From: Acidobacteriota bacterium
GTDB taxonomy: Bacteria > Acidobacteriota > Aminicenantia > Aminicenantales > Saccharicenantaceae
Assembly (NCBI GenBank): GCA_014894455.1
Contig: JADBLN010000063.1
Coordinates: 42,913 to 80,722 of the forward strand
Direction of reading: 5' to 3'
DNA: 37,810 nucleotides
Under the pieces are notes generated by a model, which made no database searches, was not told the DNA's origin, and saw only the letters and a program-made list of their open reading frames with translations. This document shows positions 2,100 through 37,810 of this stretch, piece after piece; position 1 is the stretch's first letter; each line of letters begins with the position of its first letter. The position numbers were made by a program, and so were the translations under genes.

Positions 2100-3794
2100 T
2101 CATCCCAACCGAGGAATCCTATGCTCCACCCTTCGACTGGGAGGCTGGAGAACGATATCCTCGTACCCGTTCGCTCTCCTGAACCACAACCTGGCTTGCT
2201 CCTTGAGACCGGTGAATACCAGGAAGGCCCCCTTCAGGATCACCCCAGGGCCGGCTTTGCCAAGAACCTTCGCGTACAATCTCATCGCCTTCCGGGCCTT
2301 GATCCTGGCGGCCCTGTTGGGTGCGAACAAGAGGGCGGGTAGCAGGACGGGACGCAGGTTCAAGGCGATCTTCTGGAGACGTCTGATCCTCTGGCCCATG
2401 AACACGTCGTCAGCGGCATGGTCGCTCTTCTCGTATCGCAGACTCTCGGGGTTCCAGACAAGCGATTCCGCCTCCCTCCGTGTTCGATCGGCCTCGGCCT
2501 TCGCATAGCCCCGGATGGCGGTGATTGCCATATTTAGGATACCAGGGCCGCTGACCTCGTACTTCCTCCTGAATGCTTCTTTCAGCAGGTTGGCCTGTTC
2601 CTTTGGATCAACGATGTACGGGTGGTTCCAGTTCAGTTCTCCCGCGCCGTGGTGGAAGCGCCAGTGGATGTCCTTGAGCCTTCCCTCCCCGGCCAGCCTG
2701 GCATACAAGCCGGTGCATGGGCTGTGTGTGTAGTTCATGAACTGGGTCATGTCGGAACCGAGACCGACGATCCAGTCGATGTCTTCCCTGATGGCCGCTC
2801 GGTCGTGGTGGTCAAGGAAAAGGATGCCGGACGTTATCACCGAGATGCCGTTTTCCTGGAGTTGGGCGATCAGCTTGCCGATGTCGATGTCCTTAAGCTT
2901 CGCATGGGTGTTGGCCTTTGACTCGACACCGATCCAGATCATGTGGACGCCGAGTCTCACGAGGAAATCGATGCCCACATCGGTGATCACCTCGGCCGAG
3001 GAGAAGATGTCGAAGACGTAGGCCTTCCCCTGGGCCTCCAGCCGGGCCAGAAGCTCCCTGGCTCGTTGGGGCTTCTTGAGGAAATTCTCATCGATAATGG
3101 TAAATCCCCTTGAACCCAGTTCCTTTTCGGACTTCAGACAGGCATCGAACACCTGGGCCCCTGTCGACATAAAGGGCACATACTCATTGCCGTACTTGAA
3201 GGAGGTGGCGCAGAACTCACAGGCATTGTTGCACCCCACCCCGGTGAGCAGGATCGACCCCTTCGTGGGAGTTCTTGCCCCGTAGATGTACTCGTAAGCT
3301 GGGCCAAAGAGGGCAGGATGCACGATAGGTGCCGATGGGTCTTCCCCGAAGTACCGCCTCAGCCACTCCACACCCTCGCCTTCGCAGACACCGTCGTGGG
3401 GTACGATGGTCTCCAGGGCAGGGACCATGGTGCCGAAGCCGCCCAGTATGATCTTCATCTCAGGGTGCTTCGATCGGATGTGCTCGGCCATCCTTCGGGC
3501 CTTCAGGATGTTGGGGACGATGAAGGAGATGCCCACGTGGGTGTAGCCCTTTTTCAGTTCCCTCGTGAATTCTTCCCAGGTGGGAAAATCGAGAACAGTT
3601 GCAGGCACCGAGACATTCTCCGCGAGCAGGTACAGCGGGAAGCTCCAGTAGGACTGCCGGGGCGAGTGGACGCCCTGCTGCCTCGTGATCTGGTTGTTTA
3701 AGAGTTCCATCTGCATTCCATTTCCCTCGGCGTAATCGTCCCTCACCCCGAAGGGCCCGAAGACAGAAACCAGAAGAAGTTTTATCGAGTTCAT
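2100..3794 (-). CDS. Cobalamin-binding-type radical SAM protein
   Basis: The 564-residue protein carries the radical SAM cluster motif CX3CX2C at Cys188, Cys192 and Cys195, which would bind a [4Fe-4S] cluster and S-adenosylmethionine. It is preceded by a Rossmann-like N-terminal region (about residues 60-150, with GISFIVPN, ILGGFGTMVPALE and DGVCEGEG) of the kind found in B12-binding radical SAM proteins (BchE/MiaB-like superfamily). A full SPASM or TRAM domain is not evident. The B12-domain DXHXXG motif is not obvious, so cobalamin use is uncertain. The substrate cannot be told from sequence. The start is an ATG at 3794 with a GAGG-like site upstream. The gene is followed by the esterase-like lipoprotein on the same strand. 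Confidence 0.85.
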   Translation of the reverse strand: MNSIKLLLVSVFGPFGVRDDYAEGNGMQMELLNNQITRQQGVHSPRQSYWSFPLYLLAENVSVPATVLDFPTWEEFTRELKKGYTHVGISFIVPNILKARRMAEHIRSKHPEMKIILGGFGTMVPALETIVPHDGVCEGEGVEWLRRYFGEDPSAPIVHPALFGPAYEYIYGARTPTKGSILLTGVGCNNACEFCATSFKYGNEYVPFMSTGAQVFDACLKSEKELGSRGFTIIDENFLKKPQRARELLARLEAQGKAYVFDIFSSAEVITDVGIDFLVRLGVHMIWIGVESKANTHAKLKDIDIGKLIAQLQENGISVITSGILFLDHHDRAAIREDIDWIVGLGSDMTQFMNYTHSPCTGLYARLAGEGRLKDIHWRFHHGAGELNWNHPYIVDPKEQANLLKEAFRRKYEVSGPGILNMAITAIRGYAKAEADRTRREAESLVWNPESLRYEKSDHAADDVFMGQRIRRLQKIALNLRPVLLPALLFAPNRAARIKARKAMRLYAKVLGKAGPGVILKGAFLVFTGLKEQARLWFRRANGYEDIVLQPPSRRVEHRIPRLG

Positions 3795-29463: not shown

Positions 29464-29919
29464 CTATTTTTCCTTCATGAGGTCCTCGAGCTCCTGCCGG
29501 AATTCGGCGACGTCCTCGAACTCCCGGTAGACGGAGGCGAACCTCACGTAGGCGACCTTGTCCAGCTCCTTGAGTCTGCCCATGACGAGCTGTCCGATCT
29601 CGGCGACGCCGATCTCCTTGTCCGGCCGCTCCTGGAGGAGGGACTCGATCTCTTCGACGATCTCCTCGAGCTGGCTGATCTGGATCGGCCGTTTCTCGCA
29701 GGACTTCATCATCCCCCGCAAGAGCTTCTGGCTGTCGAACGGCTGGCGCGTACCGTCCTTCTTGACGACCATGTAGGGGATCTCCTCGATCTTCTCGTAG
29801 GTCGTGAACCGGCGCTTGCAGGACAGGCATTCCCGCCGCCGACGGATGGAGAGCCCCTTTTTGCTCTCCCGGGAGTCGATGACCTTGCTTTCGAGAAAGC
29901 CGCAGAACGGGCACCTCAT
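29464..29919 (-). CDS. nrdR: Transcriptional repressor NrdR
   Basis: The 151-residue regulator has the zinc-ribbon with Cys3, Cys6, Cys31 and Cys34 (MRCPFCG...CLSCKRRF) and an ATP-cone domain at about 49-139. It represses ribonucleotide reductase genes when bound to (d)ATP by recognising NrdR boxes. The ATG overlaps the TGA stop of the preceding flippase-like gene as ATGA, so the two are translationally coupled. Length matches the family. The long upstream open frame in the same register belongs to the antisense/overlapping region and is not part of the gene. Confidence 0.95.
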
Positions 29920-30944
29920 CGTCTCTCGCTCTCTCCCATTTTTTTGAGCTGGAAAAGGGTCAAACCCTCGCGAGCTAATATAGCATATCCCAGGACGCAT
30001 GTCACGGCGATCTGGACGGCGTGGGCGACCAGGGTCATGCCTGCGGCCCGGCCGGGGTCCAGGCGGAGGATGAGGACCATGCCCAGCTTGCTGAAGTAGT
30101 GGAAGCCGCCGATCATGCCCGGCGTGGGGATGGAGGCGCCGATGGCGGTCAGGAAGACGTAGGGGACGACGAGGAAATACGGCACGCGGACGTGGTAGGC
30201 GAAAAAGAGGATCCAGTAGAAGAGCATGATGCCCAGCCAGACGACCACCGAGAGCCCGGCGTAAAGGCCCAGCTGGCCGGGAGACCGGAAGAAATCGAGC
30301 CCGCCGATGAACTCGCGGAGGAGTCCGAGGACGGCCCCGCGGGCCTTTTCGGGAAGGCGTTTCAGGAGGAAGGCGACGACGCGGAGGGCCCGCTCCCGGA
30401 AGAAATAGAGGAGGAGGGTCAGGGTCAGGAGAGCTACGGCGATGGCGACGCCGATGGTCCCCCAGAAGGCCAGCCGCTTTCCGGCCTCCACGTCGAGAGG
30501 CCAGGCTCCGGAGAAGAGGGGCCGGGAGATGAGGAAAAGGCCCAAGAGCAGGCACATCGTGGCCAGGTCGAAGATGCGCTCGACGACAACCGTGCCCACG
30601 GCGAAGCCCGGCCGCAGGCCTTCCTTGCGGGCCAGGTACAAGGGCTTGACCAGCTCGCCGAAGCGGCCGGGGAAGACGGCGCTGACCGCGAAGCCGACGA
30701 TGTTGGCCGCAACGAGGTTCCGGAAGCGGACATCGATCTTCTCGCGGGCGACGAGGATGTGCCAGCGGGCGGCCCGGGTGATGAAGTGGAGGGCCGCCAA
30801 CGGGATGAGCAATAGGAAAAGGGGAAGGTTGACGTCGGCGATCTGGGCGGGGACATTCTTCCACTCGACGCTGCGGCCGAAAAAATAGAGGAAAACGACC
30901 ATCAGGACGATGACGACGACGATTTTCGGGAGGTTCCTTTTCAT
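29916..30944 (-). CDS. Flippase-like/lysylphosphatidylglycerol synthase TM-domain protein
   Basis: The product has about eight transmembrane helices and matches the integral membrane domain shared by MprF and UPF0104 proteins (lysylphosphatidylglycerol synthase TM region), with segments [48 protein letters not shown] and [11 protein letters not shown]. This is the lipid flippase-like half; the aminoacyl transferase domain is missing, which is common for stand-alone members. The start is placed at MKRNLPK (30944); an in-frame ATG at 30965 would add seven residues, and neither has a good ribosome site. It overlaps nrdR by four bases and probably heads the operon. tRNA-Gln is divergent from it. 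Confidence 0.85.
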
Positions 30945-31019
30945 CGGCGGGGTCCATGGTATCATGAAGCCCGCCGGGGCTCAACCGGGACCTGAAAGCG
31001 CCCGCGGGCATCTTCGGAC

Positions 31020-31060: not shown

Positions 31061-31134
31061 TGGGAAGTCGTCCAACGGCAGGACTCATGACTCTGGATCA
31101 TGCAATCAAGGTTCGAATCCTTGCTTCCCAGCCA
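31061..31134 (+). tRNA. tRNA-Gln (anticodon CTG)
   Basis: The sequence folds into a cloverleaf. The acceptor TGGGAAG/CTTCCCA gives the T1-A72 pair typical of tRNA-Gln. The D arm is GTCC/GGAC, the anticodon arm CATGA/TCATG has loop CTCTGGA (anticodon CTG), and the T arm is CAAGG-TTCGAAT-CCTTG. The discriminator is G73, and CCA is encoded at 31132-31134. Its 3' half is duplicated at 37440. Confidence 0.95.
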
Positions 31135-31192
31135 ACTGATTCCCCATATTTTCCCCTGATAATTCAGAGACTTACGATTTTTACCTTTTAAG
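31091..31192 (+). repeat. Left attachment repeat (attL) with tRNA-Gln 3' half
   Basis: The first 44 bases are the anticodon-to-CCA part of tRNA-Gln and are identical to 37440-37483. The next 58 bases match with six differences. It includes the blocks TCCCCATATTTTCCCCTGAT and ATTCAGAGAC. Confidence 0.9.
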
Positions 31193-31197
31193 CACCA

Positions 31198-31223
31198 TTA
31201 GGCAGAATTAGGCGAGTTTAGGC
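31198..31223 (+). repeat. Three TTAGGC repeats at exact 10-bp spacing
   Basis: TTAGGC starts at 31198, 31208 and 31218, one DNA turn apart, on the same face of the helix. The array is just inside the left attachment repeat. Such helically phased arrays often bind integrase arm domains or accessory proteins; that role is inference. Confidence 0.7.
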
Positions 31224-31228
31224 ACAAT

Positions 31229-31249
31229 CTGTTACGTAGCGGTGACATG
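31229..31249 (+). repeat. Left copy of an internal end repeat (CTGTTAC-N-GTGACA type)
   Basis: CTGTTACGTAGCGGTGACA at the left end of the island matches CTGTTACATGGCTGTGACA at 37338 with three differences. Both copies lie in the same orientation and close to their attachment repeat, 37 and 82 bp away. Confidence 0.65.
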
Positions 31250-31349
31250 GAGGGAGAGGCTTGCCTTGCCTCCACAGCCAGTTCCTGTACTAAAATTGGC
31301 TTTCGAGAGTGGCTCCAGCCAATAAATTCGAGGGCTTGCGGAGGCAACA

Positions 31350-32507
31350 ATGAGCGATCATCTGAAAATCGTTATTAACCGAGAAGAACTCTATGAGCGG
31401 ATATGGCAGACTCCAGCCAAACAACTGGCGAAGGAATACCGGGTCTCAGATACGAGGCTGGCGGTAATCTGTAAAAAGCTAAGGGTACCAAAGCCTTCCC
31501 CTGGCTATTGGATGAAGATTAAACATGGAAAGAAGGCCCGCCGCCCTCCCCTCCCCTCGCTAGGGCCTGGCGAACAAGCCGAATTCGTGCACATCGTAGA
31601 TGAGGATCGCAAACGTCCCGTGGTGATTGACCCAGCTATACAAATACTGTTAGACAAGGTGCCCGCAATAAAGGTCCCCCAACGGCTCAATGATCCGGAC
31701 CCCCTCATCAAGAATGCGAGAGCGTGGCTGCGCAGACGCCCATATATTTATTCGGAGCCCAATCGCCTTCCGCACATCAGCCTCAACGTGTACCCAAATA
31801 GTATGGGTAGAGCTTTGCGGTTGATGGATGCACTAGTTAAGGGATTAAGAAAGCTTGGATACGATGTTCGGGGTGAAGATGCATCTAATAAAGACCAGTA
31901 TTTCGAGATCTTAGGCCAAAGAATTCGATTCCAGTTTAAGGAAAAAGCAAAGCAGATCGAACATGTATTAACAAAAGAGGAGATGGCCAGGAAGGAGCAG
32001 GGAAAGCCCGTCTTCACAAACAAGTACGATTTCCTTTCCACGGGACATTTTGAACTCAACTTAGATCCTGAAATCTGGGGAGCTGTGGGATACAAGAAGA
32101 AATGGTCTGATTCCTCCAGGAGACCCCTAGAGGGCCAGCTCAGTGACATCATTTTGGGAGTCATATCCCTAGCTGGTGAAATAAGGAAAGAAGCAATAAG
32201 CCAAAAGAAGGCTGAACAGGTAGCAGCCGAACAAAGGATCAAGAGAATCGAAGAAGAACGAAGGCAAGCTGAAGAAGAGGCCCGCTTTCGCGAACTTGAT
32301 AATTTGGTCACCAGATGGACAACGGGCATGCAGCTGAGGGCTTATGTTCAGGAATATACGAGACGTTTTATGGAGGGATCGTACTCCGACGAGGCGAGCC
32401 AAGATTTTAATAGGTGGCTATTATGGGCGAACGAATATGCTAACCGACTGGATCCCATAAATGCTTCGCTCGCCAGAATATCCGATATGTCTAAGAAGGA
32501 CAGATGA
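31350..32507 (+). CDS. Uncharacterised 385-aa protein, HTH-like N terminus
   Basis: I do not assign a function. The first about 70 residues look like a small helix-turn-helix or homeodomain-like unit (REELYERIWQTPAKQLAKEY, then VSDTRLAVICKKLRVPKPSPGYW), a pattern I have seen at the start of hypothetical proteins from mobile regions. The middle (about 110-280) is mixed alpha/beta and unrecognised. Residues about 285-320 form a charged coiled coil (QRIKRIEEERRQAEEEARFRELD) followed by a helical tail. A good GGAGG ribosome site precedes the ATG. An inverted repeat TTGGCT (31296) with AGCCAA (31317) lies upstream and could be an operator. It converges on the AbiEii gene with a 12-bp gap, a layout that allows antisense regulation. 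A defence or regulatory role is speculation from context. Confidence 0.75.
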   Translation: MSDHLKIVINREELYERIWQTPAKQLAKEYRVSDTRLAVICKKLRVPKPSPGYWMKIKHGKKARRPPLPSLGPGEQAEFVHIVDEDRKRPVVIDPAIQILLDKVPAIKVPQRLNDPDPLIKNARAWLRRRPYIYSEPNRLPHISLNVYPNSMGRALRLMDALVKGLRKLGYDVRGEDASNKDQYFEILGQRIRFQFKEKAKQIEHVLTKEEMARKEQGKPVFTNKYDFLSTGHFELNLDPEIWGAVGYKKKWSDSSRRPLEGQLSDIILGVISLAGEIRKEAISQKKAEQVAAEQRIKRIEEERRQAEEEARFRELDNLVTRWTTGMQLRAYVQEYTRRFMEGSYSDEASQDFNRWLLWANEYANRLDPINASLARISDMSKKDR

Positions 32508-32519
32508 AAAGGCATAAGC

Positions 32520-33932
32520 TCACTTGAATCTCGTCGTTACATAGATTCCTGCGCGGCTCGGACAGGGATAGCCTCGTTTATTCTTATGGCTGTTCAGAAC
32601 AGATTCATAGGATTTGTGGGTGAACCTTTTGCCACAAACGCTGCACCTAAATATATAGCTAGGCCCAGAAGCCATTTTAGGGCCCGCAGACCAACTAGAC
32701 GCATGTCTTGTTCTGCGTGGGCTCGCCGGAGCCAATCCTAGAGCCCGCCTTGTGGGTGGAGCAGAAATTGGACCTGTGCCAGTCAGCTCGATTGCATATC
32801 TGGGTACAAAGGGAGTCTTGGTGGCCTTCGCCCCCTCAATCCGATCAACCCTATATGATCTATTCTCTCCGGTATCATGTTTTACGGCATAGAGAAGAAG
32901 ATTCCCATCTTGAGTGCGTCGTAAAGAATAGGGCTCTATGAGACGATGATCTCCCTGATACGCTAAATCTACGCATAGCCGGTTTGACGCAGCATAACGG
33001 ATTACTTCCAATGGTTGCGCTAAGCCCCAAGCTTGTGCCACAGAAGATGGATGCCAGGAAGTATCAATTGCCTGGCCCATAGTGGGAATGGCAGCAGGAG
33101 CAGCTTTTTCGGCCGAACGATATAGCCAATCGAAGACTTCTGGGAGTTCCTGCCAGAACTGCTCAAAGGGCGGCAATACGGGCACCTGATGTCCCAACAT
33201 ATTTTCCCACTCAGACACTAACTCCTCACGTTCAGGCTTGTGCTCGAGGATTTCGATAGTAGGCATCGAAATCTCCTTATAGCGGCATTTCGCTTCAAGT
33301 GTACTCAGAATGGTAGCCCTGCCTTGTCTAGTATCATCATGGCGATAGAGATGGATCACATCATAAAGATCTCGAGGCCTTAAACGCTCCGCTAATGCCC
33401 TGATCTTTTCAGCAAATATCTCCTCAAAGCAGTAACATTGGACATGAATGCCTACATCAGGTTTATCTGAGTACGGATGGTTAACCTCTCGGATACACTG
33501 TTCTAAAACCAGGGCTTCGTTCGAAGTTAGATCTAACTTTACACGAGGCGGATCGCCTCCCCTTTGTAAAGGCCCGAGATAGGCTATCTTCCCTTGAACC
33601 GATGTCCTGCCGAGGGGACTCGTATAAACATCAAACCTGATCAGCTCGGGCGGAAATTCAATGCCAGCAGCGGTATATATCCAGCCTGCAATTTCCTTAA
33701 ATTGATTAACCAGAAAGCTCGAGTTTTGATGCTCGGCCAGTTTGAGCGTGAAATCCAAGTCTTCGGAGAAACGGTACGTCTCAAAATAGCACTTCTTAAG
33801 GCAAGTACCTCCCTTGAATACCCAGCTGGCACCGAGTTCGCCACTTTGTGCAATCCCGGCCAAGAGCCAACCGAGGATATAATCTTTCTCAATTATGTCT
33901 GGCGTCAGGCCAAACTTACCAGAGAAGTCCAA
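32520..33932 (-). CDS. AbiEii nucleotidyltransferase toxin with WYL-like domain and zinc finger
   Basis: Residues 1-290 form the AbiEii/AbiGii nucleotidyltransferase toxin domain: GLTPDIIEKDYILGWLLAGI, the KGGT motif at 40-43, and SEDLDF at 56-61 with the acidic metal ligands. Residues about 306-372 (LEVIRYAASNRLCVDLAYQG, LIEPYSL, RSYRVDRIEGA) follow the pattern of a WYL domain, a nucleotide- or DNA-sensing module. The C terminus (about 427-462) has Cys430, Cys433, His449 and Cys457, a zinc-finger-like pattern. The family's usual start reads MITRQEIL; here that register has ATC-ATC codons at 33953 and no ATG, so the TTG at 33932 is shown, though initiation may be upstream. The antitoxin gene ends at 33955, so the two are coupled. 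In known AbiE systems the toxin acts as a GTP-dependent nucleotidyltransferase and blocks phage growth; here that is inferred. Confidence 0.85.
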   Translation of the reverse strand: MDFSGKFGLTPDIIEKDYILGWLLAGIAQSGELGASWVFKGGTCLKKCYFETYRFSEDLDFTLKLAEHQNSSFLVNQFKEIAGWIYTAAGIEFPPELIRFDVYTSPLGRTSVQGKIAYLGPLQRGGDPPRVKLDLTSNEALVLEQCIREVNHPYSDKPDVGIHVQCYCFEEIFAEKIRALAERLRPRDLYDVIHLYRHDDTRQGRATILSTLEAKCRYKEISMPTIEILEHKPEREELVSEWENMLGHQVPVLPPFEQFWQELPEVFDWLYRSAEKAAPAAIPTMGQAIDTSWHPSSVAQAWGLAQPLEVIRYAASNRLCVDLAYQGDHRLIEPYSLRRTQDGNLLLYAVKHDTGENRSYRVDRIEGAKATKTPFVPRYAIELTGTGPISAPPTRRALGLAPASPRRTRHASSWSAGPKMASGPSYIFRCSVCGKRFTHKSYESVLNSHKNKRGYPCPSRAGIYVTTRFK

Positions 33933-33954
33933 GATCTCCTGTCGGGTGATGATC

Positions 33955-34761
33955 TCAGGCCTCTTTCATCCAGCTATCTGGCACCCAAATCCGCCAGCGA
34001 GTTATTAGCTTGCTAGTCTTAAGAACAGGATCGAGTTTAACAGTCCCTTTCGTAAGCCTGGCCGCACACACGCTTATGGCCGCTTTCTGGTCAGGACTAT
34101 AACGTTCTAGCAATAATCCAAGCCGCTTAAAAACAGCGCCATTGCTTAGGCGTTTTGCGTATTCGGTTAACTGATCAACATCCTTGCTCTCTGATTTCAG
34201 ATAATTAATGAGCATGTCCACGGTCGGGCGAATTCCGCCGCCAAGTTTCGGATTCGCCAGCAGGTCGAGGATTGTGCGGGAAGGATCCGAGATCGATATT
34301 TTTGCCTGTCCTCTCCATATTTGTTTCGTTCCAAATAGCGCCTTGTCCGAAATAGTGCAGAGCATAAAACTCGTTCCCTTTATGCTTAGATTGCGCTTCC
34401 TAGGCCTCTGAGTTGTCAGGACAACCACGGTACGGAAGATTTGCTCCGTAAGATCCCAATACCCTGCAGCCGTCCATCCTCCGATATAGCAGGGCGCGAA
34501 AAGACGGGCAGCCACAATCCATGGATCCTCAAGAGAAACGTCAGTAGTCCTTGACTCAAGGGGCACTCTCACGTACAGACCTCGTCTGACTCGTGATATC
34601 CAACCTTTCTTTGCCCAACGCGAAAGCATCTTCGCTGCATCGGTGGGGTTGATCTTCAATATTCCAACAACATCATCTACGGCTATTGTGCCTTTGGTTT
34701 CCCGGAAGATGGCAGAGAGTCTTTCTCTATCTTTCTTTCCCAATCCTGACATGGTTTCCAT
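33955..34761 (-). CDS. AbiEi-family type IV antitoxin
   Basis: The 268-residue protein matches AbiEi antitoxins, which autoregulate their operon and counter AbiEii without a direct stable complex (type IV). The first about 65 residues form a winged helix-turn-helix (FRETKGTIAVDDVVGILKINPTDAAKMLSRWAKKGWISRVRRGLYV). The rest is the antitoxin domain (SLEDPWIVAARLFAPCYIGGWTAAGYWDLTEQ, and VVVLTTQRPRKRNL). The ATG at 34761 follows an AGGTG site; Met4 is an alternative. The stop codon lies two bases short of the ATC codon that would begin the toxin in its usual register. A strong promoter with direct repeats lies upstream. Confidence 0.9.
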   Translation of the reverse strand: METMSGLGKKDRERLSAIFRETKGTIAVDDVVGILKINPTDAAKMLSRWAKKGWISRVRRGLYVRVPLESRTTDVSLEDPWIVAARLFAPCYIGGWTAAGYWDLTEQIFRTVVVLTTQRPRKRNLSIKGTSFMLCTISDKALFGTKQIWRGQAKISISDPSRTILDLLANPKLGGGIRPTVDMLINYLKSESKDVDQLTEYAKRLSNGAVFKRLGLLLERYSPDQKAAISVCAARLTKGTVKLDPVLKTSKLITRWRIWVPDSWMKEA

Positions 34762-34791
34762 GGTACACCTGAAGCGCCTTTATTCGTACGT

Positions 34792-34881
34792 TAGGTGAAT
34801 TATAGCGCATCGAACATACTTTAACAACAGCGCGTGCGCACCAACTCACGCAATAGGTGAACTATTACGCTTTCGATGTAC
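34792..34881 (-). promoter_or_regulatory. abiE promoter and candidate antitoxin operator
   Basis: On the minus strand -35 TTGTTA (34822-34827), a 17-bp spacer and a perfect -10 TATAAT (34799-34804) drive the abiEi-abiEii operon. A 28-bp direct repeat overlaps it, with copies at 34792-34819 and 34854-34881 matching at 19 of 28 positions and sharing TAGGTGAA and the ending TAC. The first copy covers the -10 element and the spacer. AbiEi winged-helix proteins autorepress through repeats in their promoter, so these are the natural candidate binding sites. Confidence 0.7.
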
Positions 34882-34916
34882 TTTTGCGCTTGTCAATTTG
34901 CTGATTCCAGGTGACG

Positions 34917-35140
34917 GGGTCCTCATTCAAAACCAAGCTTGAAGGAAAGTCCTTCGGAAACCGCATTAGGGAGTTTAACCGAACACCAGCAGATCGGCCA
35001 GCTCAAGATGGAAGTCGAGTGCCTAAAAAAAAAGTCACAGACGCTCCTGTCGCGATGAAGCGGGCCGAAGTGGAAAAAGAGACCACGACGATGTCCGTTG
35101 TCCGGCAATGCGGGTTGCTCGAGCAACTTATGACCTCTCA
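34917..35140 (+). pseudogene. IS3-family transposase remnant with frameshift A-tract
   Basis: One frame encodes the OrfA C terminus with the hallmark QIGQLKMEVECLKKK, ending at a TGA near 35060. The next frame starts OrfB (MKRAEVEKETTTMSVVRQCG, like the MSVxRQCxLLG start of the orfB product). Nine adenines at 35025-35033 form the slippery site where IS3 elements shift frame to make the fusion transposase. Everything before about 34917 and after about 35140 is gone, so it cannot be active. It shows an IS3 element once sat in the island. Confidence 0.75.
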
Positions 35141-35155
35141 ACCCCTGTCCGCTTG

Positions 35156-35215
35156 GGTAAGATTTTTAAATGGCAAGACGATACCCGCTATGGTAAGGTT
35201 CTTAAATGGCTTGAC
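35156..35215 (+). repeat. 24-bp direct repeat, two copies
   Basis: GGTAAGATTTTTAAATGGC at 35156, extended to 24 bp, recurs as GGTAAGGTTCTTAAATGGC at 35192 with four differences overall. It lies between the IS3 remnant and the DUF805 gene. No function is suggested. Confidence 0.6.
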
Positions 35216-35277
35216 AGGGCTTATCCTCTCTTGAGTAAGGCCAGGGGGGGGACGGCGGGGCCGCGCCTTCCCGAATC

Positions 35278-35658
35278 TCAAGGGGTGGTTCTCTTAGCCA
35301 CCACCAAAGGATTGGGGCCATACTTGTTCGGACCAGGCTGGCCATCTCTTGTAAGCCATATTATGAGCACAATGGAACCGATTAAGGGGACAAAAAATAG
35401 GAAGTACCACCAGCCACTATGGCCTATGTCATGGAGGCGGCGCACAGTAACGGCGATACCAGGCACATATACAGCTAATACATAGAATCCAATAAGGATT
35501 GTAAGGATTTGGTCATCGTCGCCCGTAATAATGATTCCAAATATGATGACCCCAACAGAAACCAGCATATGGGCGATCCAGAACCCCCAATATTCCCAGA
35601 GGCGAGCTCTACCGCAAAATACTCCATATTTTTTAAGAGCTTCAAAATATGGAATCAT
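35278..35658 (-). CDS. DUF805 membrane protein
   Basis: The 126-residue product has three or four membrane helices and the DUF805 signature: an N-terminal FCGRARLWEYWGFWIAHML, a central VRRLHDIGHSGWWYF and a C-terminal GPNKYGPNP. The function of the family is unknown; members occur in many accessory loci. It is read in the same direction as the downstream abiE operon but lies 400 bp away, with an IS3 scar between. The gene looks intact. Confidence 0.85.
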   Translation of the reverse strand: MIPYFEALKKYGVFCGRARLWEYWGFWIAHMLVSVGVIIFGIIITGDDDQILTILIGFYVLAVYVPGIAVTVRRLHDIGHSGWWYFLFFVPLIGSIVLIIWLTRDGQPGPNKYGPNPLVVAKRTTP

Positions 35659-35716
35659 TAGAACTCCTTCTTCAAAACTTTCGACTCCAGCCAGCGGTCG
35701 ACGTCGTTACGGAAGA

Positions 35717-36049
35717 TCAACTTCCGGTTGAGCTTGATCCGCCGTCCTCTTCCTCTTCAACACTCCGAATCTCTTCCTCGTTATCGAACTTTTTATGCCA
35801 TAGCTTGTCTATTCTTATCCCTATAAATAGCCACACAATAAGGCTGGGAAAATATACATACATAAAGCTATTATCAAAGACAAAGTTTGGCTTATGGGCT
35901 ACAAAAACGAAGATAACGGAAGCAACGAAAGCCGAAAAAGCGGCCATGACTTCTGTCATCTTTTTTTTGAAAATGACTTTGTATATAAGCCATTTGAAGA
36001 ACTTGGTGATCAGATATGTTCCGATTAAAGCGCCAATATAAAAGCTCAT
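35717..36049 (-). CDS. Small membrane protein, unknown
   Basis: The 110-residue product has three hydrophobic helices (about 4-22, 30-50 and 66-82) and an acidic, Ser/Gly-rich tail (DNEEEIRSVEEEEDGGSSSTGS). I recognise no family. The ATG at 36049 has only a weak GGGC-like site. It lies 58 bp before the DUF805 gene on the same strand, so the two may be co-transcribed. Its A+T-rich codons fit the island. The 36050-36291 spacer upstream shows nothing. Confidence 0.6.
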   Translation of the reverse strand: MSFYIGALIGTYLITKFFKWLIYKVIFKKKMTEVMAAFSAFVASVIFVFVAHKPNFVFDNSFMYVYFPSLIVWLFIGIRIDKLWHKKFDNEEEIRSVEEEEDGGSSSTGS

Positions 36050-36291
36050 TATATTTGCCCTTCATATGGTTTAGTCGGGCAACTGTCAGGCTTTCCGCTT
36101 ACTTATTTCCATTGGCCCTCCGCTCTGCGAGTACTTCCAGCTTTCTTTCGCATGATAATTCGAAGCACCTGGGAAGTAAAGAGGCCCTGATGAGGCCGGG
36201 CTGGCCGGCGCTCCCCAGTTCACGATAGACGCTGGTTAGGCGGTGTATTGAACTCGCTGAGATTGACGCTCGGCTTATGGCGTTGCCGCGG

Positions 36292-37074
36292 CTACTTTTG
36301 GACGATCTTCCTGAAGGCGTATTCCTTCCCTGACGACTGGACCCTCAAGATTAAGGGGGATACATAAGTCTTCGGCTTCAGCCAGTAGATGCCTCCCTTG
36401 GCACCTGTCTTGGCCGGGATCTCCGAGTTCTCGACGAGTCCCGTCTGAAATACGGCGGCGGCCATGTTTTGAAGCTTCTTGTTCTGGCTGGCGATGATCC
36501 CCGCGCCAAGGGCGTATCCGAGTTCCTGACCAGCCTTATTCATTTGGTCTTCTTCTATCGTCCCCGTCGTCTGAGTATTGGCGTAGAGGTGGCCGGAATT
36601 GGTGAGGTATCCCGACGTGGTGGAATTGGCCGAATAGATGTACTTGGGCTGATAGACGAAGGGCGGAATTCCCGACACCTTCGAGAGGAACAGGTTGGCC
36701 GCCTCATCCGGCGCGGCTTTGTGGAACGCGGTCCTATTCCCGTCGAGAAGGAGAAAGTCAGACGGGTCGATGACGTAGTTGTCGTCGTTGCTGTTGTAGA
36801 TGTTGAACTGAGCCCAGAAGAGTTCTTTGAGCTCGTACATGGTGACGGCGATGGCCAGGTTCTGATCCTCGATGACGATCATATTCGACATATTCGGGAC
36901 CGGCCGCCAAGCAGGAGCCCGCTCCCCCGGCTTCTGTGCCGCGTAGAGATCTGCGACGGTATAGGCCCCTTCCTGCTTGACCGGGGCCATTATCTTCATC
37001 ACGACGACCTTCGGCGTACACGCCGACAGGAACAAAACGATGAGTATGAAGAGAAGTACAACTTGTTTTTTCAT
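36292..37074 (-). CDS. Lipoprotein of unknown function
   Basis: The 260-residue protein starts with a lipoprotein signal peptide ending in the lipobox FLSAC (Cys19), so it is exported and lipid-anchored. The body shows ELKELFWAQFNIYNSNDDNYVIDPSDFLLLDGN, suggesting a beta-rich extracellular domain, and a Gly/Ala helical stretch (GYALGAGIIASQNKKLQNMAAAV). No catalytic motif is visible. The GC content is somewhat higher than that of its island neighbours. Confidence 0.7.
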   Translation of the reverse strand: MKKQVVLLFILIVLFLSACTPKVVVMKIMAPVKQEGAYTVADLYAAQKPGERAPAWRPVPNMSNMIVIEDQNLAIAVTMYELKELFWAQFNIYNSNDDNYVIDPSDFLLLDGNRTAFHKAAPDEAANLFLSKVSGIPPFVYQPKYIYSANSTTSGYLTNSGHLYANTQTTGTIEEDQMNKAGQELGYALGAGIIASQNKKLQNMAAAVFQTGLVENSEIPAKTGAKGGIYWLKPKTYVSPLILRVQSSGKEYAFRKIVQK

Positions 37075-37439
37075 ATCTTACCGTCCTTATTGTGATTCCC
37101 TGATTTCCCTATGAACCAATTGAACCGACAGCATCATCCTAAAAGGGAGTTTAGGTCTAGGCAATCATCTTCATCGGCTAAACCGGGGGTGATATGTCGC
37201 CATCTGATCTCACCCCTAGGGAGGAGAGAAACCCGGCTAGAAAGGGCTCTGCTACTATACCGTTCAATGAGTGGGAGGCCGGGTTATCGGCACTCCCCGA
37301 AACTGAAACAGAGGCCTTGGGTCGAGCGTCGGAGAGCCTGTTACATGGCTGTGACACGCCTGTAACAGAAAAGTCAGGTATCCAGGTAACTGACTCATCC
37401 ACCGTCAATTAGGAGCTCGTGGCGTGGCTATCAATCCTG
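37075..37439. other. Gene-free right part of the island
   Basis: No supported gene is visible. A 72-codon frame at 37194-37412 has a possible ATG but no clear family; it could be a degraded gene end. The segment contains the right copy of the end repeat at 37338, and a mirrored CTGTTAC/GTAACAG pair at 37338 and 37362. Confidence 0.5.
37338..37368 (+). repeat. Right copy of the internal end repeat
   Basis: CTGTTACATGGCTGTGACA matches the left copy at 31229 with three differences. The block also carries an inverted pair CTGTTAC (37338-37344) and GTAACAG (37362-37368). It lies 82 bp inside the right attachment repeat. Confidence 0.65.
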
Positions 37440-37541
37440 CTCTGGATCATGCAATCAAGGTTCGAATCCTTGCTTCCCAGCCACCTCATTCCCCATATTT
37501 TCCCCTGATGATTCAGAGACATACGTTTTTTGCCTTTTAAG
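37440..37541 (+). repeat. Right attachment repeat (attR) with tRNA-Gln 3' half
   Basis: The first 44 bases equal the tRNA-Gln 3' half (31091-31134). The next 58 match the left copy with six differences. Homology ends exactly where the IS21-type terminus begins, so the true repeat may once have been longer. Confidence 0.9.
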
Positions 37542-37730
37542 TGTATATTCCGGCTGAAAGCGGCCAGTGATTCCGGTTCAATCCGGCCACCTGTTCCGGT
37601 TCAAAGCGGCCACTTTTTGGACGGGACCGGAATGTGAAGCGATGCTGGATAACTATTCCAAAATGGGCCAGGATATCTCCTTTAAAAGGAGGCACAAATG
37701 GCCCGAAAGAGGTTATCCATGCGAAAAATC
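37542..37730 (+). mobile_element. Left end of an IS21-family insertion sequence
   Basis: A TGTATATTCCGG terminus starts at 37542. Three related 23-bp repeats begin at 37548, 37571 and 37594 (TTCCGG(C/T)T(G/C)AAAGCGGCCA type), which is the multiple-terminal-repeat arrangement of IS21 ends. A TAAAAGGAGG ribosome site and an istA-like start follow. The match to IS21 stops after codon 12, where a palindrome begins, so only the end is present in the window. Confidence 0.75.
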
Positions 37731-37775
37731 AAAGATTATGCTGAGCTCAGCATAATCTTTGTTATGTCCAGTTAA
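37698..37775 (+). pseudogene. istA: Truncated istA start
   Basis: The open frame begins MARKRLSMRKIKD, matching the usual start of IstA transposases (MxxKxxSMRKIKE). After residue 12 or 13 it diverges into unrelated sequence and stops at 37775, giving only 25 residues. The ribosome site AAAAGGAGG lies just upstream. Confidence 0.7.
37731..37760. repeat. 30-bp perfect palindrome at the IS21 break
   Basis: AAAGATTATGCTGAG is followed directly by its reverse complement CTCAGCATAATCTTT with no loop. It marks the point where istA similarity ends. Close behind lies a second dyad, AGCAATCC-TG-GGATTGCT, at 37787-37804. Confidence 0.85.
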
Positions 37776-37810
37776 TAGTTATGCGGAGCAATCCTGGGAT
37801 TGCTGGCGAT

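Follow-up and report, generated by a model that had tools for sequence, protein, structure and literature searches.

How does a DNA segment without any recombinase gene come to lie between an intact tRNA gene and a second copy of the 3′-part of that gene? This question is raised by a tRNA-Gln gene close to the right end of the window, by which we mean the whole stretch of 37,810 nucleotides of an Acidobacteriota genome analyzed here. An initial annotation had described positions 31061-37541 as a complete island in tRNA-Gln that carries an AbiE pair and is either a decayed element or a satellite moved by a helper. Of this interpretation, the integrase-less insertion at tRNA-Gln stands, while the extent of the island and the assignment of the long repeat as its att site are not supported in the form first given. 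In our preferred reading, the 6.3-kb insert is the worn left portion of a mobile-element stack of about 21 kb. Features of the locus are collected in Table 1.

Table 1. Features of the tRNA-Gln locus, in positions of the window
Feature	Position	Strand	Remark
Conserved left-flank gene, LPG synthase TM family	29916..30965	-	outside the island
Intact tRNA-Gln (CTG)	31061..31134	+	ARAGORN; target gene, left boundary
Repeat copy 1	31091..31192	+	44 bp of tRNA 3′ part (core) and 58 bp of element arm
10-bp-phased TTARGC array, four units	31188..31223	+	candidate left arm-type sites; shuffle mean 0
Candidate arm-type site CTGTTACGTAGCGGTGACA, left copy	31229..31247	+	analogous sites in left ends of G077 and G079
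385-aa protein: HTH, beta domain, long coiled coil	31350..32507	+	
AbiEii nucleotidyltransferase toxin, 470 aa	32520..33932	-	C-terminal WYL domain
AbiEi antitoxin, 268 aa	33955..34761	-	upstream of AbiEii, same operon, 22-nt gap
DUF805 membrane protein	35278..35658	-	
Small predicted membrane protein	35717..36049	-	weak matches only (4TM effector, SieB)
Lipoprotein-like exported protein	36292..37074	-	weak lipobox match
Candidate right arm site CTGTTACATGGCTGTGACACGCCTGTAACAG	37338..37368	+	partly palindromic
Repeat copy 2	37440..37541	+	tRNA 3′ fragment and arm sequence
Left end of RIT (recombinase-in-trio) element	37542..37810	+	continues on contig C87 to base 3586

The repeat and the real extent of the insertion

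The two copies of the direct repeat (102 nt, 94% identity) are spaced by 6349 bp, and GC content is 0.493 between them versus 0.624 upstream; the repeat with its six mismatches, the intact tRNA gene with a 3′ fragment at the opposite end and the lower GC inside had all been described correctly. A genome-wide search places the tRNA-Gln fragment at these two sites only. All six mismatches fall in bases 45-102, outside the tRNA part, in which 44 of 44 bases are identical. Judging from relatives, the att core common to both copies consists of these 44 tRNA bases only, and the remaining 58 bp in each copy have the look of a left "arm" belonging to an integrated element. In copy 1 this region is more than a simple trailer of the chromosome: what follows the tRNA is a terminator-like hairpin in genus g4, and a phased TTARGC array in the window and in genomes G008, G042, G050 and G079. 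Comparison with such relatives ruled out the 102-bp repeat as one long att core, which the initial annotation had taken it to be. Since the post-tRNA part of the copies is element-arm sequence, copy 2 is read as a junction between tandem elements: most likely it is not a plain attR, and the right end of the first element and the left end of a second one probably meet there. One should keep in mind that the length of a repeat at a tRNA site can mirror tandem elements instead of an att core.

What then lies to the right of copy 2? The window runs up to the end of contig C12, one of 125 contigs in a 2.95-Mb assembly, and this contig stops 269 bp past copy 2, inside a RIT element, which speaks against 31061-37541 as the whole island. 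A sequence that starts with TGTATATTCCGG at 37542, the first base after copy 2, is found again in inverted orientation at C87 3586-3317. Between the two ends, C87 encodes three tyrosine recombinases in overlapping genes, each with PF00589 (159-1400, 1394-2290 and 2287-3267, with overlaps of 7 and 4 nt), and the whole RIT element, with a palindrome in its inverted ends, is about 3.8 kb long. The end of the window and the start of C87 overlap by 55 bases, of which a 50-base part is unique in the genome. If this k-mer-sized overlap is a true join, the distance from the tRNA to the conserved right-flank gene (C87:14969-16060) is about 21.6 kb, 6,676 bp in the window and 14,913 bp on C87. Beyond the RIT element, C87 has about 11 kb of cargo, with genes for exported proteins and IS3-like transposases and one for a TIR-domain protein (L045, C87 11973-12968) that matches PADLOC PDC-S54 and is apparently cut short. 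The genome search gave no third tRNA-Gln copy bounding the presumed second element on C87.

The ends of the insert carry further ordered motifs. Copy 1 runs on into TTAGGC repeats phased at 10 bp and then into a CTGTTAC..GTGACA site that recurs at the right end, and copy 2 reaches the start of the array (CCTTTTAAG), where the RIT end begins. The window, G008, G042, G050, G079 and G077 all have TTARGC units at a spacing of 10 bp, with paired GTnAC-type sites after them; the array sits after tRNA-Gln in G042, G050 and G079 and after tRNA-His in G077, and its tRNA-associated occurrences include other families of the same order. Of 142 genomes of the class, six have it as an exact 18-mer pattern (KTARGCGANTTTARGCAC), in five of them directly downstream of a tRNA 3′ end. 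The GTnAC-type sites of the two ends (37338-37356 and 31229-31247) match at 16 of 19 positions, a modest likeness that shuffled end regions reach in 5 of 300 trials. The natural reading of the arrays is that they are arm-type sites to which an integrase would bind. A viral source of the arm array was rejected: the 40 exact matches to its pattern among IMG/VR viral contigs, none of which has a third repeat or full array or a tRNA, are due to chance or coding sequence, and a second, GGCAC-type pattern has no match in viral contigs. The left-end signature provides a testable mark for the elements involved.

The tRNA-Gln site in relatives and the missing integrase

If the segment is an insertion, is the same site vacant elsewhere? 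Four congeners (G005, G008, G011 and G012) show synteny with the upstream flank (25.7-31.0 kb), and the distance from the tRNA to the genus-conserved right-flank gene is 1.0 kb in G005, 1.7 kb in G011, 2.3 kb in G007, 3.7 kb in G012 and 16.3 kb in G008. The initial annotation suggested a search for empty tRNA-Gln sites; single-copy, near-empty sites are seen in G005, the emptiest relative, and in G011 and G007. Such sites in relatives have no second copy, so repeat and insert go together, as the initial annotation had predicted. The opposite case, which would have spoken against that annotation, is a gene order kept in many relatives that lack the repeat. It did not turn up: with the HTH-like protein as query, the interior order was not found in 33 other genomes of the family, and the sole exception is a broken start of the gene in G008. 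There, the left end of the window and the broken HTH gene are followed by different cargo, and Septu (PtuA/PtuB) together with DruE-, DrmMI- and DrmD-like genes (Druantia/DISARM-like) occupies the same tRNA-Gln (L046, G008:C11, 2.7-18.5 kb); the site therefore holds defence genes in more than one genome.

Among 94 genomes of the order, tRNA-Gln 3′ fragments occur in at least 10 others and mark inserts in the genome of the window (G000), G012, G003, G047, G057, G060 and others. The tRNA-Gln gene is an order-wide hotspot used by integrases of the order. An element of autonomous type is seen in G060, whose tyrosine integrase (468 aa, HTH_17 and PF00589) ends 7 bp before the tRNA-Gln fragment; relatives of this integrase were not found in viral contigs. 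Intervals bounded by tRNA-Gln or its fragments measure 6.35 kb in G000, about 2.4 kb in G012, about 3.0 kb in G047, about 1.5 kb in G057 and about 2.7 kb in G060 (from fragment 1 to fragment 2), and no integrase was found in any of these five. Small integrase-free inserts thus recur at a hotspot of Acidobacteriota that spans an order and holds defence genes in at least two genomes. The genome of the window also has an intact, phage-like 9.6-kb element in tRNA-Leu(CAA) (L107, C62, about 9.6-19.3 kb) with a 59-bp identical tRNA repeat and an integrase at the attR or fragment side, the same arrangement as in G060. This element is a possible source of an integrase acting in trans.

In the window, the attR-side place that holds the integrase in the G060 and tRNA-Leu elements is non-coding. 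Six main proteins are encoded inside (HTH-like, AbiEii, AbiEi, DUF805, small membrane and lipoprotein-like proteins). That no recombinase gene lies among them, as first annotated, agrees with searches of Pfam, PADLOC, NCBIfam and PHROG, and a genome-wide PF00589 search gave no integrase on this contig. Neither a relaxase nor a transfer protein was found among the interior proteins, and the interior yielded no remnant of an integrase, of a transfer gene or of ICE/IME genes; translated 36041-37445 has no match to the integrases that were compared. A 72-aa open reading frame (37194-37412), considered as an integrase remnant, has no significant relative in the order and was dismissed. Two interior stretches, 34.8-35.3 kb and 37.1-37.4 kb, are without a clear gene. 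A tandem-like pair, CCGCTTGGGTAAGATTTTTAAATGGCAAGAC and CCGCTATGGTAAGGTTCTTAAATGGCTTGAC, is located at 35149 and 35185, within 34911-35234.

The AbiE pair and the protein beside the tRNA

The AbiE assignment has held up, with all four toxin motifs in place. AbiEi, a wHTH antitoxin directly upstream of the toxin, matches PF13338 (1.5e-8) and its PADLOC model (4e-112). Motifs I-IV of AbiEii are represented by G41 G42-x15-D58-L-D60 with R54, K176/R183 (KIRALAER) and R187-D-L-Y-D191 (RDLYD); mutation of the four motifs is known to abolish toxicity (PMC3985639). The C-terminal tail of AbiEii is possibly zinc-finger-like (weak match). In the promoter region (34740-34930), inverted repeats that could serve as an AbiEi operator were not found, a variable feature whose lack does not speak against AbiE, and two degenerate direct repeats seen by eye (34791-34822 and 34853-34884, 22/32) lie near a TATAAT box. 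AbiE is known both for phage defence and for stabilization of elements (PMC3985639). By analogy, the pair most likely acts as an autoregulated type IV toxin-antitoxin that would abort phage infection and stabilize the element.

The best lead of the locus is the undescribed HTH/coiled-coil protein, whose relatives recur beside tRNA 3′ ends and AbiE pairs. It falls into no family of Pfam, NCBIfam, PADLOC or PHROG. Its AlphaFold model is confident (pLDDT 89.9) and shows an HTH and a beta domain along with a long coiled coil, with no significant structural match in PDB or BFVD; only the HTH part matches phage HNH endonucleases by sequence. A sample of 396 genomes of the phylum gave relatives in 21; the GTDB collection contributed 80 retained loci from many phyla, and 97 plasmid records have matches that are for the most part partial. 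Over 81 loci, which were not thinned for relatedness so that the p-values are optimistic, 20 of 23 nearby tRNAs have the 3′ end towards the gene (binomial p 0.0002), and nine tRNAs lie within 1 kb of it versus a permuted mean of 1.6 (0/5000). Some of these loci have an integrase between tRNA and gene and others have none. AbiE pairs are present in 12 loci, six of them within 250 bp of the gene (permuted mean 0.8, 0/5000), in convergent, divergent or same-strand orientation. At 11 loci, a related neighbour just downstream is ankyrin-repeat-like by eye.

Two loci resemble the window in their boundaries. L119 (G325:C18), from outside the order, is a 5.46-kb segment bounded by tRNA-Thr with a 43-bp identical repeat and the HTH gene, and no integrase was found in it. 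In Undibacterium amnicola (L167, 9.6-15.7 kb), tRNA-Phe and a 20-bp tRNA repeat enclose 6.06 kb with a truncated integrase, an AbiE-like pair and the HTH gene convergent to the pair; this locus from another phylum comes close to the arrangement in the window. An uncharacterized protein family is tied in this way to tRNA islands and AbiE. It might be, though we hold this as a doubtful proposal, that the protein of the window founds an undescribed family that is a hallmark of tRNA islands and a third partner of AbiE (elsewhere a partner of ankyrin-repeat proteins), being an added sensor or regulator, or an att-end accessory factor for integrase-less elements.

Origin of the insert and comparison with known systems

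How could such a locus have been built? Rather likely, the 6.3-kb interior is a CIME-like element whose integrase was deleted and whose ends were kept, in tandem with an older element in the order-wide hotspot. Successive integrative elements would have entered tRNA-Gln; the left one would have lost its integrase and kept its ends, namely the restored tRNA-Gln with the left arms on one side and the right arm with the tRNA fragment on the other. The left end of the older tandem element would be the second repeat copy, and the RIT element may have jumped in later, exactly at the arm of this next element. Element 1, alone or along with element 2, could then be excised by any integrase, resident or newly arrived, whose core and arm specificity is the same.

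Decay with att sites kept is favoured here over the satellite reading, in which the insert never had an integrase and is still active, with other elements supplying in trans integrases that recognize the tRNA-Gln core and arms. That five intervals at tRNA-Gln sites have no integrase (G000, G012, G047, G057 and G060), and that the core, identical in its tRNA part, and candidate arms are kept at both ends, would suit such a satellite. We nevertheless think it rather unlikely: no genes are seen in common among the five inserts, which therefore do not form a single satellite family, helper-dependence genes like those of known satellites are not seen, the arm copies have drifted apart, and the RIT element interrupts the second site. 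Could the segment instead be a dead remnant, an ordinary decayed island whose repeat is passively kept and whose mobility is gone? The RIT insertion in the arm of copy 2, the two stretches without a clear gene and the IS3-type transposases in the neighbouring 11 kb point this way, but the unbroken identity of the tRNA core and the intact HTH, AbiEii and AbiEi genes with all toxin motifs make it unlikely. The tyrosine recombinases nearest at hand, the three of the RIT element directly beside copy 2, which the initial annotation did not see, are very improbable as movers of the insert, since the RIT element has inverted-repeat ends of its own (37542 and C87 3586), to which the tRNA repeat does not belong, and published RIT ends do not fit core and arm att sites (PMC3414803). 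The trio is accordingly an unlikely integrase of the island, and the integrase-deleted, CIME-like element is the reading kept for the comparisons below.

Published RIT elements have three adjacent genes with overlaps of 4-8 bp, a length of about 3.5 kb, and inverted repeats with a palindrome at the ends (PMC3414803). The present one shares the three overlapping tyrosine recombinase genes and the palindrome-bearing inverted ends, and differs in its Acidobacteriota host and in its insertion point, exactly where a tRNA repeat copy stops. Like described AbiE systems (PMC3985639), the pair of the window has AbiEi followed by AbiEii in one operon, four toxin motifs and a mobile-element context; unlike them, its AbiEii is extended by a WYL domain and a C-terminal tail, and a convergent HTH/coiled-coil gene lies 12 bp away. 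With phage satellites (PICI, P4-like), the insert has in common its small size, defence cargo and possible dependence on others, whereas no integrase, regulator, replication or packaging gene was found inside; an integrase of its own and genes for regulation, replication and packaging, as PICIs have, are lacking.

The closest comparison is with CIMEs, which keep attL and attR without genes for integrase, excision and conjugation, derive from ICEs or IMEs, and are mobilized in cis after accretion (PMC5704250). The window differs in its Acidobacteriota host and AbiE cargo, and an ICE/IME origin or a functional partner was not seen. As in CIMEs, genes for integrase, excision and conjugation are absent, and both ends are kept, with an identical 44-bp core and candidate arm sites at either side. 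As in tandem accretion of ICESt1-related elements and tRNA-Lys composites (PMC5704250), an integrase-less segment with left and right att sites adjoins other elements in a tandem arrangement at the 3′ end of a tRNA gene, and the order of events proposed above matches the published three-step origin of CIMEs (PMC5704250).
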